This document shows positions 31,206 through 41,803 of a stretch of 64,000 bases of DNA, piece after piece. The stretch's first letter is position 1. Every line of letters starts with the position of its first letter. The notes below the pieces were generated by a model. The model was given only the letters and a program-made list of their open reading frames with translations. It had not been told where the DNA came from and ran no database searches. The DNA comes from Spiroplasma eriocheiris (GTDB lineage: Bacteria; Bacillota_I; Bacilli_A; Mycoplasmatales; Mycoplasmataceae), in NCBI RefSeq assembly GCF_001029265.1, contig NZ_CP011856.1, positions 62,001-126,000 on the forward strand, given 5' to 3'. A program made the position numbers and the translations under genes.

Positions 31206-32390
31206 ATGGCAAAACAAAAATTTGACAGAAGTTTACCACACGTAAATGTAGGTACAATTGGACACGTTGACCATGGTAAAACAACTTTAACAGCTGCGAT
31301 TACTACAGTATTAGCTAAAAAAGGATTCGCCGAAGCTAAAGGTTATGATGGAATTGACAACGCCCCAGAAGAAAAAGAACGTGGAATTACAATTAACACA
31401 TCACACGTTGAATACCGTACAGAGAAAAGACACTACGCTCACGTTGACTGTCCAGGTCACGCGGACTACGTTAAAAACATGATTACTGGAGCTGCCCAAA
31501 TGGACGGTGCAATCTTAGTTGTTGCTGCAACTGATGGACCAATGCCTCAAACAAGAGAACATATCTTATTATCAAAACAAGTTGGAGTTCCAAAAATCGT
31601 TGTTTTCTTGAACAAATGTGATATGGTTGATGACGCAGACTTATTAGACTTAGTTGATATGGAAGTTAGAGACTTATTAAGCCAATACGACTTTGATGGT
31701 GATAATGCCCCTGTTATTAAAGGATCAGCATTAGGAGCATTAAACGGTGAACCACAATGAGAAGAAAAAGTAATGGAATTAATGGATGCAGTTGATAATT
31801 ATATCCCAACTCCAGAAAGAGATAAAGATAAACCATTCTTAATGCCAGTTGAAGACGTTTTCACAATTACAGGTCGTGGAACAGTTGCAACTGGACGTGT
31901 TGAACGTGGAGAATTAAAATTAAACGATGAAGTTGAAATTGTTGGAATTAAACCAACTCATAAAACAGTTGTTACAGGAATCGAAATGTTCAGAAAATTA
32001 TTAGACTACGCGGAAGCGGGAGACAACATTGGAGCATTATTACGTGGTGTTGACCGTGATGATATTCAACGGGGACAAGTTTTAGCAAAACCAGGAACTG
32101 TTAAACCACACCAAGAATTTAAAGCTCAAGTTTATGCGTTAACAAAAGAAGAAGGAGGACGTCATACACCATTCTTTGGTCACTACCGTCCACAATTCTA
32201 CTTCCGAACAACTGATGTTACGGGAAGCATTGAATTACCAGCAGGAACAGAAATGGTAATGCCAGGAGACAATGTTGAGTTAACAGTTAAATTAATTAGT
32301 CCAATTGCTGTTGAACAAGGAACTAAATTCTCAATTCGTGAAGGTGGAAGAACAATCGGCGCTGGATCAGTTGTGGAAATTATTAAATAA
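31206..32390 (+). CDS. tuf: Elongation factor Tu
   Basis: A 394-residue EF-Tu, delivering aminoacyl-tRNA to the ribosome. Motifs: [44 protein letters not shown], and the domain III ending SVVEIIK. Only one TGA (Trp, 31758-31760) is used. Codon choice is more C-ending than in neighbours (GAC, AAC, TAC, TTC), as expected of the most highly expressed protein. Start ATG 31206 after GGGAGG. It is followed by a UUCG-loop terminator. Confidence 0.98.
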
Positions 32391-32694: not shown

Positions 32695-33306
32695 ATGGCA
32701 TATAACCCAACAGTCAATAATGTTGAAGAACCAGCAAAAGCAAGTGCTTTTGGGAAGTTTTTTGTATATATTTCATTTATTTTAATTATTCCAATTTTTA
32801 TTTTTATTGGAACAAGAAATAGTTTAATTCGTCAAAAACAACGAATTGAAGAAACAGCATCGGATATTGATGTGCAATTAAAACGAAGAATGGATATGCT
32901 AACAAAATTAGTTGATGCTACAAAGCAATATATGCAATATGAAAAATCAACATTATCAACAATTATTGAATTGAGAAGTCAAACAAGTCCTTTTAAAATG
33001 AAAGATGTTGATCGGATTAACAAAGCTATTAGTGATCAAATGGGGCGCATTAACATGTTAATGGAAAATTACCCTGATTTGAAAGCTAATAATAGTGTAA
33101 TTGAATTACAAACAGGAATTAAAGATTGTGAAGACAACATTGCTGCTGCTCGTAGATTTTATAATTCAGAAGTTCGTGATTTTAACGGAAGAATTAAGAC
33201 CTGACCAACAAATGTATCAGCCGGAACTATTCACGCGCAAACATATTTATATTTTGAAGCAGCTCCTGCTGATCGTCAAGATGTTAAAATTGATTTAGGA
33301 CAATAA
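32695..33306 (+). CDS. LemA family protein
   Basis: A 203-residue protein with a single membrane segment at about residues 22-42 (FFVYISFILIIPIFIFIG). A helical domain typical of LemA follows: RQKQRIEETASDIDVQLKRR, then MLTKLVDATKQYMQYEKSTL, and near the end the conserved pattern ARRFYNSEVRDFNGRIKTWPTN. One TGA (Trp) sits in that last motif. LemA proteins place a four-helix bundle outside or at the membrane; their role is not settled. Start ATG 32695 after AAGGAGG. The next gene, 10 bases downstream, is a DUF3137 protein, a frequent partner of LemA. Confidence 0.9.
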
Positions 33307-33316
33307 TTAACAGCTA

Positions 33317-34369
33317 ATGACAAATAATTTAAATTCAACGATAACTCCGCAGTCACAACGCTGAATTGCCACGGTTACAAATGATGTTAATGATAAATTA
33401 CAACAATTTAGTAACCATAAAATAAGTTTTAAGTATTCTTCAAAAAATTGGCGGGCATTTGCCGCAATTATGTTGAGTGCGGGATTACTCTTCCTTGTCT
33501 TTACAATTTATTTTCTTGCGGCTAGTAAATCCTTGCGCGGTGTTTTTTTGATTGTTGACATTGTTTTCTTAGTGATTGGGGCGTTGCTATTTTTAATTGG
33601 GATTATTTTTTATGTCAAATGATATACATCCCATAATTATGAACAAAAGATTTTAAAAGTTTTAGATTTCCAAAAATATTATCAACTTGCCTTTTTAGAT
33701 GAATTCGCGGGGAAAATCCAGTTAGATGATATTTCGACGAATTTTAAAATTGCTCCTAATGCTTTTGTTCCCCATGAAGGCAAAATTAGAGTGGACCGCG
33801 TTCTTAATTTACAACATCGTAGTTTTCGCTGTTCATTTGGAACTCTAACCCAGGAAATCCGTCGTAGTTATGTTGATAGCCAGGGTCGTCGTACGACATA
33901 TTATTGAAACCGATTCCCTTTTTTAAATAGTATTATTTTAAATAAAAATATTGAAGTCAATGCTATTATTAAACCAGCAAAGTCATTTTTAAAAATTTTT
34001 AAAACTAAGGATAATACTGATTTAGAATCAAGTGAATTTGAAAAAATGTATGCGGTTGATGCTGATGATCAAATTATGATCCGAAAGCTATTAGTCCCCA
34101 AAGTTATTGCTAATTTAATCGATTTGGGTAAGACTGTAAATAATATTCCGCAGATGAATTTTGCCGAAAATTACTTAACCTATGGTTTTGAAAAATTTAG
34201 TGTGGGGGGCTGACAAGACCCAACTGGAGTTTTAGCCGGGATTGATTTAAAAGGTAATTGAGAAGATATCCCTAGTGATATTTGTAACAAAATTATTGCT
34301 GATCTTCAGTATTTCCGTCGGGTATTTGAATGAGTAGTTGCTTACGATTTAATTGGGGAAGATTTATAA
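33317..34369 (+). CDS. DUF3137 domain membrane protein
   Basis: A 350-residue protein that only appears when UGA is read as Trp; six or more TGA codons break it in the standard code. Residues 1-45 are hydrophilic, two membrane segments follow (about 52-75 and 80-105), then a cytoplasmic or external domain. The pattern FGTLTQEIRRSYVDSQGRRT.. then ESSEFEKMYAVDADDQIMIR, RKLLVPKVI and LTYGFEKFSV matches DUF3137 as I know it (..S.eF.k.f.Vys.d...a..lltP..). DUF3137 genes commonly sit beside lemA, as here, where only 10 bases separate them. No catalytic residues are apparent. A terminator follows, shared with the convergent gene. Confidence 0.82.
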
Positions 34370-38631: not shown

Positions 38632-38712
38632 TTATTATTTTTTTTGATATTTTTTATTTTTTTGTGTATAATATTATCTCGTTTTATTTTTTTAAAATTT
38701 AAACTTTTATGA

Positions 38713-38803: not shown

Positions 38804-41803
38804 ATGGAAAAAATCAAAATATCGAATTTAAAGACAAAAGGTATACTTGAGCGTTTTTTATATAGCAGTGATGTTGTTAATGCTGGTGATAATATTGCGG
38901 TAGTTAAAATAAATAATGATGAAATAATTATTAAAGCCCCTTATAATGGTAAAATCATTAAGCCACTAAAAACAGGTACAACTGTTAAGAAAGGTTCAAC
39001 CATTGCATACTTATTAACCGATGAGAAAGAAATTGCTAAATATAATAATAAACATGGTTATCAAGATGAATTTAGTTATTTAGATAAAGATGGCGTACGA
39101 TTTAATCCTGGTAAAAATGGACAATTTGGAACAAAATGAAAAGATATTGAGGAAGAAGATTATTCAGGGGCTGCTTTTGTTAGTGATGTTGATACTAAAA
39201 CTCCCCCGCAACCACTTAATATTACTGAAACTCCTAGCGAAAATAACCAGTATGCAAACCGAATTGCTAATTTAAAAACTATTGTTGAATCACCAGAAGC
39301 ACCAATCACTGAGGAACCAAAAGCTGTTCTCCTTGAATCAGATGATTTAACTGAGCCATCAGTTATTCCGGTTGAAAATAATCAGCCGATTATTAATCTT
39401 CATCACCCTATTAAAGAACAGACGGATAATTTAATTAAAAAAGAAGAACCAGTGGCTAATTCAAATTCAGAAAAAATAAGTGAAAAACATTTAACATTTG
39501 GTCCCCAAAAGTCACGCCGACTATCATTTAAAAATTTACATTACAATGTTGGACCCCAAGAACGTGCGCAGATTCCTTCAATTGATACAATTAAAGATGT
39601 TAATGTGGAAAATTATGGTGTAAAAGATCGCAACGATAATGTTAAAAACAATCATTCACTAAATAATTCATTTATGCAAATGCATAGTGATATTGCTAAT
39701 GCAGTTAAGGAAAGTGATAATATGTTAAAAGACGAAACTAATGCAAAAACTTATGCGAAATATCTTGTTGAAGAAACAAAAGTGCAAGATCAAGCACCCC
39801 AAAATAACTCAACAACTAATCTTTTTGCTGCTAATGAAGAAGGAAATTCTTCTTTTCGTGATTTAGTAAAAGCGCGTCGTAATCAATTACACCAACAAAA
39901 TAATTTTCATGAAATTATTAATGAACCTGAAAATAATAAAAACGCAATGGATTTCTTAGATGAATATGGGCGTCCTAAAATTATGCGGAACATTATTCAA
40001 GGACGAATGAATAATTTAATGAAAAATAATGGTCAATTAGAGTCAATTGATGGAGTTAACTCAACAGGGGCAAGTAGTAGTGATCATAGTGTAGCAAAAC
40101 AACCTAAAATTTCGGTTGAAGAAGAGCCAGTGGACTATATTACAGCGGATGGTTATGAAATTAAAGTTGGTGAGGATCAAAATACGCCTCCCAAAGATTT
40201 AGGTTATTATTCGCCATTAAAAACCTATCGTGATCGTTTATATGAAAAATTAAATAATAATGATCAACGTGAAAAAATTCTTAAAACACGAAACCAACGA
40301 GAATTAATTAAAAAAAGAATGGAACAATTAGCGCGCGGTGATATTGAAGTTACCGATAACGTTTTAGGGGCAATTAATAATTACAAGCGACCTTCTTATG
40401 AAGAAATTGAAGCTCAATATGATCTTTTAAATGATAATTATAATAAGCAAAAATTATCATCATCAACCCAAGCAATAAATAATAATGAGGAAGTTATTGA
40501 CCCTTACCGGGGAATCATTCCTGATAGTCGCAAGAGTCCTAGCCAACCACCATCATCTTTAGCTCCCCAACCAGTTGCTAATAGCCAACCATTTGTGACT
40601 AACCCTGCGCCCCAAACCCAGCCAGTAATTGTAAACCAACCACCAGTTATTAATAATAGTAACCAGGAAGTATTGGTTGAACTAGCAATTTTAAAAGAAA
40701 AATTAGCACAACAAGAGCAACAAAATAAACACCATGAATTATTACAAGAAATTAAAACATTAAAAGAAAATAATCTTCGTAACAATGTTAACAATAATGA
40801 TCACAATAATTTTGATAAAATGATGCAATACATGTTAATGCAACAAATGATTAAAAGTATGAACCAACCACCTGATCCTTTTTTAACCCAGTTATTACGA
40901 GAATCAATGTCTAATCAGCAGGCAACTAATTTTAATCAATTGTCTCCAGAACCACAGAACCAACCAGTTGTCCATAATAACGAAGGAATTATGGTTAAAA
41001 AATTTGATGAACAATCTAATAGCAACGCAGGAAATTTCATTCAACCATTAAATAATAATCTTAATATTTTACATACAAATACTAATCCTGTTGAACCACA
41101 GGGATTAGAAACGAGAGAAGAAATTAAACGAACTAAATATCCAGTGATTCGGTCAGTTATTTTATCCCAAAGTCAAGTACCACCGTTAACAATTAGTACA
41201 GAAATCGATATGTCAGCGGTCATTGAGCAACAACGAAAATTAAAAAATGCCAATGCTGAAACGGGAGTAAAATTTTCAACAATGAGTTTTATCTTAAAAG
41301 CTGTTTCGTTAGCATTAAGTGAATATCCAAAACTAAATTCATACTATGACCAATCAACTAACCAAATTGTAATTAAAAATTCTCACCATATTGGATTAGC
41401 AACGGAAACAAGTGAGGGACTAGTTATTCCAGTGATTAAGTTTGCAGAACGGCTAAGTTTAAAACAAATTGCTATTAATATTCAAGAAACTCTTGATCGT
41501 TTACGTCAAGGTGAATTATATGATTATGAATTGCAAGGAAGTACAATTACGATTGCTAACTATGGAACAGTTGGTGCAACCCAAGCAACCCCAACAATTT
41601 TCTATCCGAACTCTGCTGTGATTGGAATCGGCAGAATTGTTCGTAAACCAATTGTAATTAAAGGCGACAAGTTGGTAATTCGTTCAATGATGAGTATTTC
41701 ACTAACCATTGATCAAAGAATTATTGATGCCGCGGAAGCAGGAATTTTTATGACTAGATTAAAAGAAATTCTTGAACAACCAGAATTAATTACGTTATCA
41801 TAA
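38804..41803 (+). CDS. Giant E2-like protein: degenerate lipoyl-type domain, long disordered middle, degenerate acyltransferase domain (999 aa)
   Basis: One frame of 999 residues with UGA = Trp. Residues 1-75 have the biotinyl/lipoyl fold pattern (SSDVVNAGDNIAVVKINNDEI..APYNGKIIKPL..GTTVKKGSTIAYL), but the position of the lipoylated Lys is Asn38 or its neighbours, with no Lys in the turn. Residues 75-770 are hydrophilic, N/Q/P-rich, with several coiled-coil stretches and a Met/Gln patch. Residues 770-999 match the 2-oxo-acid dehydrogenase acyltransferase catalytic domain (VPPLTISTEIDMSAV.., TIANYGTVGATQATPTIFYPN, IGIGRIVRKP). The active-site HRxxDG reads QRIIDA (Gln971, Asp975, Ala976): catalytic His and Gly are gone. 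No pdhA/B/D genes are near. It therefore probably acts as a structural oligomer rather than an enzyme (inference). Start ATG 38804; GGGGGC is a poor ribosome site, and TTG 38786 is an alternative. Confidence 0.88.

Follow-up and report, generated by a model that had tools for sequence, protein, structure and literature searches.

A catalytically dead E2-like protein co-occurring with Fibril and MreB in Spiroplasma: a candidate structural hub

A gene of the helical and wall-less bacterium Spiroplasma eriocheiris, referred to here as gene B, encodes a 999-aa protein whose C-terminal part is an acyltransferase (E2) core of the 2-oxoacid dehydrogenase type, with an intact fold and with the catalytic residues lost in a fixed way. 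Within its taxonomic family, B occurs exactly with the Fibril/MreB swimming cytoskeleton. The reading that we favor, with a probability of roughly 0.5, is that an E2 core has been taken out of metabolism and serves as a structural hub of the cytoskeletal system, broadly understood. B would then exemplify a classic self-assembling enzyme core that small, reduced genomes have retained without its catalysis, under constraint like that of an essential enzyme, a case that automatic E2 annotation would conceal.

Gene and protein architecture

Gene B was analyzed within a 64,000-nucleotide stretch of the S. eriocheiris genome (contig NZ_CP011856.1, positions 62,001 to 126,000), called the window below, to which the coordinates in Table 1 refer. 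The genome comprises 1,365,714 bases and uses genetic code 4; the full-length frame exists solely under this code, in which the TGA at residue 112 is read as Trp, and is interrupted at that codon under table 11. The possibility that B is a pseudogene was ruled out by the intact frame together with the low dN/dS values given below. The genes around B in the window include those for EF-Tu, LemA, PTS and tRNA-His; no conserved operon partner was found, with the neighbors differing from genus to genus, and B was not seen linked in the genome to fibril or mreB. The promoter assigned to the gene is a weak call, because 32 promoter-like sites were observed in the region against 26.3 expected. Just downstream of the EF-Tu gene (31206-32390), a LemA-family gene and, immediately after it, a DUF3137 gene whose N-terminus gave a claudin-like match are located at 32695-34369.

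Table 1 Features of gene B and its product (window coordinates)
Feature	Position	Strand	Basis and remarks
Promoter-like site TTGATA-17-TATAAT	38644..38672	+	11/12 consensus; upstream of gene B; weak, consensus match alone
Gene B	38804..41803	+	ATG start, code 4; 999-aa catalytically dead E2-like protein; family of orthologues
Lipoyl/biotinyl-like barrel, residues 1-72	38804..39019	+	profile, model, alignment; without modification lysine
Asn38 at the lipoyl-lysine column	38915-38917	+	alignment to orthologues and working E2
Low-complexity N/Q/P/S/E-rich linker, residues 85-342, one predicted helix (284-326)	39056..39829	+	composition, model; poorly conserved
Conserved helical block, residues 343-553	39830..40462	+	only in B of fibril-bearing spiroplasmas
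Predicted 42-residue helix, coiled-coil-like, residues 619-660	40658..40783	+	model, conservation
Strongly conserved Met/Gln-rich helix, residues 669-685 (MMQYMLMQQMIKS)	40808..40858	+	conservation, model
E2 (2-oxoacid dehydrogenase acyltransferase) core, residues 765-999, C-terminal anchor PELITLS	41096..41800	+	profile, model, alignment
Ala918 at the Ser/Thr position of working E2s	41555..41557	+	alignment: S/T 27/27 working E2s; B: A 33/38, S 3, T 2
Gln971 replacing the catalytic His	41714..41716	+	alignment: His 27/27 working E2s; Gln 38/38 B
Ala976 replacing the invariant Gly of HxxxDG	41729..41731	+	alignment: Gly 27/27 working E2s; Ala 35/38 B

The initial annotation described an N-terminal domain of the lipoyl type without the modification lysine, which is valid for B itself, where a beta-rich barrel is predicted at residues 1-72 and Asn38 aligns with the lipoyl lysine of the working E2 of the same genome. 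The sequence match to PF00364 stays under the cut-off (19.7 bits against 22.1), and an orthologue from family f9 clears this profile with 32 bits. The lack of the lysine does not extend to the whole family of orthologues: Lys occupies the lipoyl column in 3 of the 40 aligned (genus g12), and an adjacent Lys is present in two more. The copies of genus g10 (L068:5543-7513, L069:5954-7555) have lost the lipoyl-like domain and have shrunk to 533-656 aa.

The long middle of the chain fits its earlier description as N/Q/P-rich and coiled-coil sequence, with 13.2% N, 7.4% Q and 6.8% P in residues 85-764 (N+Q 20.6%, compared to 9.4% in the core) and long helices predicted at residues 284-326 and 619-660. 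The conserved block at residues 343-553 is recognizable by the motifs FRxLVxxRxxQL ... LDxxGRPxIxRNIIxxRM ... YRDRL. The N-domain and linker evolve faster than the core (dN/dS 0.10-0.24). The model of the full-length protein was poor overall (pLDDT 50), as expected for a chain that is mostly disordered.

E2 core and lost active site

The acyltransferase fold noticed at the C-terminus of the frame was recovered by several approaches: PF00198 matches residues 769-997 with 222 bits, the core modeled alone reached a pLDDT of 90.7, and this model can be fitted along its whole length to E2 cores of known structure (230+ residues, Z about 30-33, rmsd about 2 Å). The hydrophobic C-terminal anchor is conserved in the form P-E-L/I-L/I-T-x-S.

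For the active site, the cores of 38 B orthologues were aligned with those of 27 working E2s from the same order (Table 1). The HRxxDG motif is represented in B by QRIIDA (Q971, D975, A976), just as had been read from the frame, and the Gln and Ala of this motif, whose conservation had been named as a point to check, are shared by all and by nearly all of the orthologues, respectively. Gln971 corresponds to His610 of Azotobacter E2p, and Ala918, by alignment and residue count, to Ser558 of the same enzyme; the titles of PDB entries 1dpb, 1dpc and 1dpd point to a role of Ser558, His610 and Asn614 in the E2 mechanism. At the same time, Asp970 and Arg972 are kept in the B cores, and Asp975 is kept in 37 of 38. 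No HRxxDG was present in any aligned B orthologue. The E3-binding domain (PF02817) was absent at E 0.01 from the B orthologues scanned, compared to a score of 55 bits for the working E2 of the same genome. B is no E2 enzyme by any functional criterion examined.

Ancestry and constraint

The B sequences form a monophyletic group with support of 100/94, the shorter f9 copies (670-692 aa) included, and represent one ancient orthologous family. In the same well-resolved pairs, dN/dS was 0.016-0.021 for the B core and 0.022-0.035 for the core of the working E2, and four control genes from a different locus gave 0.009-0.072. The B core is under strong purifying selection and evolves as slowly as the working E2. 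Relaxed selection, suggested by a high dN/dS between G001 and G005, was discarded, as the control genes are equally inflated in that very close pair. Split matches hinted at broken copies in G210 and G217, and both were read as intact ORFs; a break near the N-domain in G215 is the sole such case among the B genes of fibril-bearing genomes. In G210 (L102; G210:C1:421000-429000), Fibril is matched by two overlapping segments (1-121 and 115-511), which suggests a frameshift, and B is intact and enlarged to 1075 aa with an apparent internal repeat.

This pattern of loss and constraint bears on one alternative, namely that B is a ligand-binding pseudoenzyme, which would bind CoA, acyl-CoA or lipoamide and signal the energy or acetyl state via its arms without catalysis. 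The uniform replacement of the catalytic His (Gln in 38/38 B sequences, Glu in 7/7 sequences of the paralogue C described below), with D970, R972 and D975 fixed, suggests a retained site and not decay, and a dN/dS of about 0.02 is in agreement with such a function. However, the same conservation could equally mark the interfaces of a trimer or cage, and ligand binding alone leaves the co-occurrence with Fibril and MreB unexplained, so that we regard this explanation as unlikely.

Co-occurrence with Fibril and MreB

The survey covered 320 genomes of the order, 60 of which belong to the Spiroplasma family. Fibril was found in 42 of the 320, all within this family (42/60), and B is carried by exactly those 42 genomes, in 40 of them by matches over most of the protein; the other two, from genus g10, were counted as positive on the basis of a diverged copy recognized by its core, gene neighborhood and middle block. 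The same 42 genomes carry 3-6 strong MreB genes, and the 18 other genomes of the family are without B, without Fibril and without a strong multi-copy MreB set. When the middle block was searched without the E2 core in the own genome and 60 relatives, one locus was obtained in each of the 25 fibril-bearing genomes among these, with no match in the non-fibril genomes of this set. In g10, a diverged Fibril (35-42% identity) stands alongside the diverged B. MreB3 of the genome carrying B is 100% identical to PDB 7e1c, an S. eriocheiris entry. Additionally, the lengths of Fibril (512 aa) and of MreB2, 4 and 5 (348, 369 and 350 aa) equal those in the S. eriocheiris table of PMC5289999.

The co-occurrence of B and Fibril rests on few independent events, the underlying losses being those in the non-helical relatives of the family, in which many other genes are also gone, and those in family f9. 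Family f9 is without Fibril; an intact B is present there in G055, with four MreBs, and in G044, whose MreBs are partly decayed, G312 and G313 have a broken B together with an MreB remnant or none, and G050 has neither B nor MreB. G050 has also lost pyruvate dehydrogenase (PDH), and G312 and G313 gave no match to a working E2; since PDH or the working E2 vanishes along with MreB and B, f9 cannot separate a link to the cytoskeleton from a link to PDH. Decay of B and MreB is at various stages in G312 (L101), G313 and G044, with the pieces of the broken B of G313 located at two loci. G045 has a strong MreB and no B.

The small number of independent losses, as well as the joint disappearance of PDH, MreB and B in f9, would also be expected if B were the scaffold of some other trait of helical spiroplasmas (membrane, division, surface or metabolic clustering) and if its link to the cytoskeleton were due to joint loss in the reduced non-helical relatives; the published mass spectrometry of the ribbon, which does not list B (PMC5289999, PMC9582952), points in the same direction. 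Against this explanation, which we consider rather improbable, some fibril-bearing genomes that are without PDH and have broken neighbor genes still possess an intact B, and Fibril and B diverge in parallel in g10.

Relation to pyruvate dehydrogenase

A separate, normal E2, for which the initial annotation had recommended a search near pdhA, was found in the genome carrying B: it is 429 aa long, has HRLIDG and starts about 1.1 kb after the pdhA match. Neither of the findings named beforehand as speaking against the hub, namely orthologues in close relatives with HRxxDG and a lipoyl Lys, or a genome devoid of any other E2 and with pyruvate dehydrogenase activity dependent on B, was encountered. 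B is intact in five Spiroplasma genomes (G001, G005, G007, G011 and G013) in which pdhA has been lost (with a fragment remaining in G005) and the working E2 has been lost or truncated, and, conversely, PDH is kept and B is absent in genera g2, g3, g5 and g9 of the same family. Judging by these gene contents, B is apparently not a part of PDH.

This dissociation in both directions was the reason for rejecting B as a structural or regulatory PDH subunit similar to the E3-binding protein (protein X). Such a subunit would have the fold and the loss of the catalytic His in common with B, would account for the lipoyl-like N-domain, and is structurally close, with the modeled B core aligning to human E3BP (6h60) at Z 28.8 and to fungal PX (7r5m) at Z 27.2. 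Nevertheless, with no E3-binding domain in the orthologues scanned, with B retained in the five genomes and with PDH present without it in the four genera, this role is very improbable. Finally, that B is an active acyltransferase with an altered active site is scarcely credible, because B keeps the fold and D975 but has neither the His that acts as general base nor the Ser/Thr of the transition state.

Paralogue C and other E2-like genes

A second dead E2 paralogue, C, of 621 aa (L005:6326-8191, minus strand; core in the own genome at 1118328-1118981) has Glu at the position of the catalytic His in 7 of 7 aligned sequences and a lipoyl-like N-domain without a lysine at the expected column, and dN/dS of its core is 0.035-0.087. 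In the genus, C always adjoins a YhaM-like HD/OB-fold gene; more degenerate copies were found beside the YhaM-like gene in G020, G024, G031 and G036 and, by position, in G035. In most of the genus (L055, L057, L059, L060, L062, L065 and L066), some 6-7 kb separate C from the working PDH E2 downstream of it, and pgcA-like, phoU-like and pstB-like genes are found upstream of C in those loci; S. eriocheiris and its sister G009 are exceptions, with C distant from PDH. Moreover, family f11 (L076, L052 and L081; 600-700 kb genomes) has E2-like cores with DHRPFDG and very long branches; these cores belong to another type of E2, and a weak E1-like gene is nearby.

Proposed role of B

We return to the preferred reading, that of a structural hub of the cytoskeletal system. 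E2 cores form trimers and 24- or 60-mer cages. By analogy with them, the B core would trimerize and perhaps assemble into a cage of 24 or 60 subunits, with the C-terminal anchor holding it together. Such a cage would display many flexible arms of ~700 residues, each bearing helical segments for binding and a lipoyl-like tip that is unmodified, and these arms may hold or position other proteins and could tie filaments together or anchor them at the pole. The likeliest clients would be the Fibril/MreB ribbon or the polar tip structure, because B shares their genome distribution in the survey. A more specific version, in which B organizes the cytoskeleton as a trimeric or cage-like hub, perhaps forming the core of the polar dumbbell, with arms that bind the ribbon and the 343-553 block as the Fibril-binding part, is put forward tentatively and is doubtful in our own estimation.

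The core of the tip dumbbell of S. eriocheiris was described in 2017, together with 16 proteins in the detergent-insoluble fraction (PMC5289999). A protein of the size of B (about 113 kDa) is not among the bands of the Triton-insoluble structure (PMC5289999, Table 1), and B is not among the six proteins of the isolated S. eriocheiris ribbon (PMC9582952, Table 2), with both lists obtained by peptide mass fingerprinting of stained bands only. It follows that B is probably not a major stable component of the ribbon. A bulk role there is disfavored, and B may instead act at the pole, as a low-abundance cross-linker or in some other way. The proposal of the initial annotation that the E2 core has become a structural hub, perhaps a cytoskeletal scaffold, accordingly stands in part: a core conserved without catalysis or PDH and the exact co-occurrence with Fibril and MreB speak for it, and the published ribbon fractions, which do not list B, speak against it.

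Reconstitution studies are relevant here as well. Fibril and MreBs in JCVI-syn3B gave swimming without long runs and without a tapered pole, for which the authors invoke unknown proteins (PMC9710875), and Fibril and MreBs in Mycoplasma capricolum gave kinking with no polarity, dumbbell or travel (PMC9663586). In JCVI-syn3B, two MreBs are enough for swimming (PMC9710875), which means that the minimal motor can do without B. JCVI-syn3B and M. capricolum are both non-helical relatives, and the fibril-less genomes of the family that were surveyed, among which these hosts were not identified by name, are without B. B has been short-listed, from genomes alone, as a protein that may build the polarized tip and the dumbbell of swimming spiroplasmas, and we consider it a strong candidate for a missing structural part of the Spiroplasma swimming machinery. 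Literature searches returned no account of B and none that links a Spiroplasma E2-like protein to the cytoskeleton.

Comparison with known systems

B shares with the E2p of pyruvate dehydrogenase (1b5s) the core fold, the order of N-terminal lipoyl-like domain, long linker and C-terminal core, and the hydrophobic C-terminal anchor. In contrast to E2p, it is without the catalytic His or Ser/Thr, the lipoyl Lys and the E3-binding domain, is 999 and not 429 aa long, and is kept without PDH. The E3-binding protein, or protein X, has to our knowledge been described only from eukaryotes. This protein (PDHX; 6h60, 7r5m) is, like B, an E2 homologue that has lost catalysis and is structural, but it has the E3-binding domain and belongs to PDH, neither of which is the case for B. 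Paralogue C resembles B in its lipoyl-like N-domain, its acidic linker, its E2 core and the loss of the catalytic His; it differs in its length of 621 aa, Glu at the His position, other neighborhood and separate clade (100/100), and it was not found in all fibril-bearing genera. Fibril itself is a filament former and the main ribbon protein, whereas B has an unrelated fold and was not found in the ribbon fraction. Nevertheless, B is comparable to Fibril in being built on a housekeeping enzyme fold, which in the case of Fibril was recruited into the spiroplasma cytoskeleton, and the distributions of the two among the genomes of the family are identical. Fibril was derived from a nucleosidase (PMC9710875), so that a second such recruitment of a housekeeping fold is plausible in this lineage.
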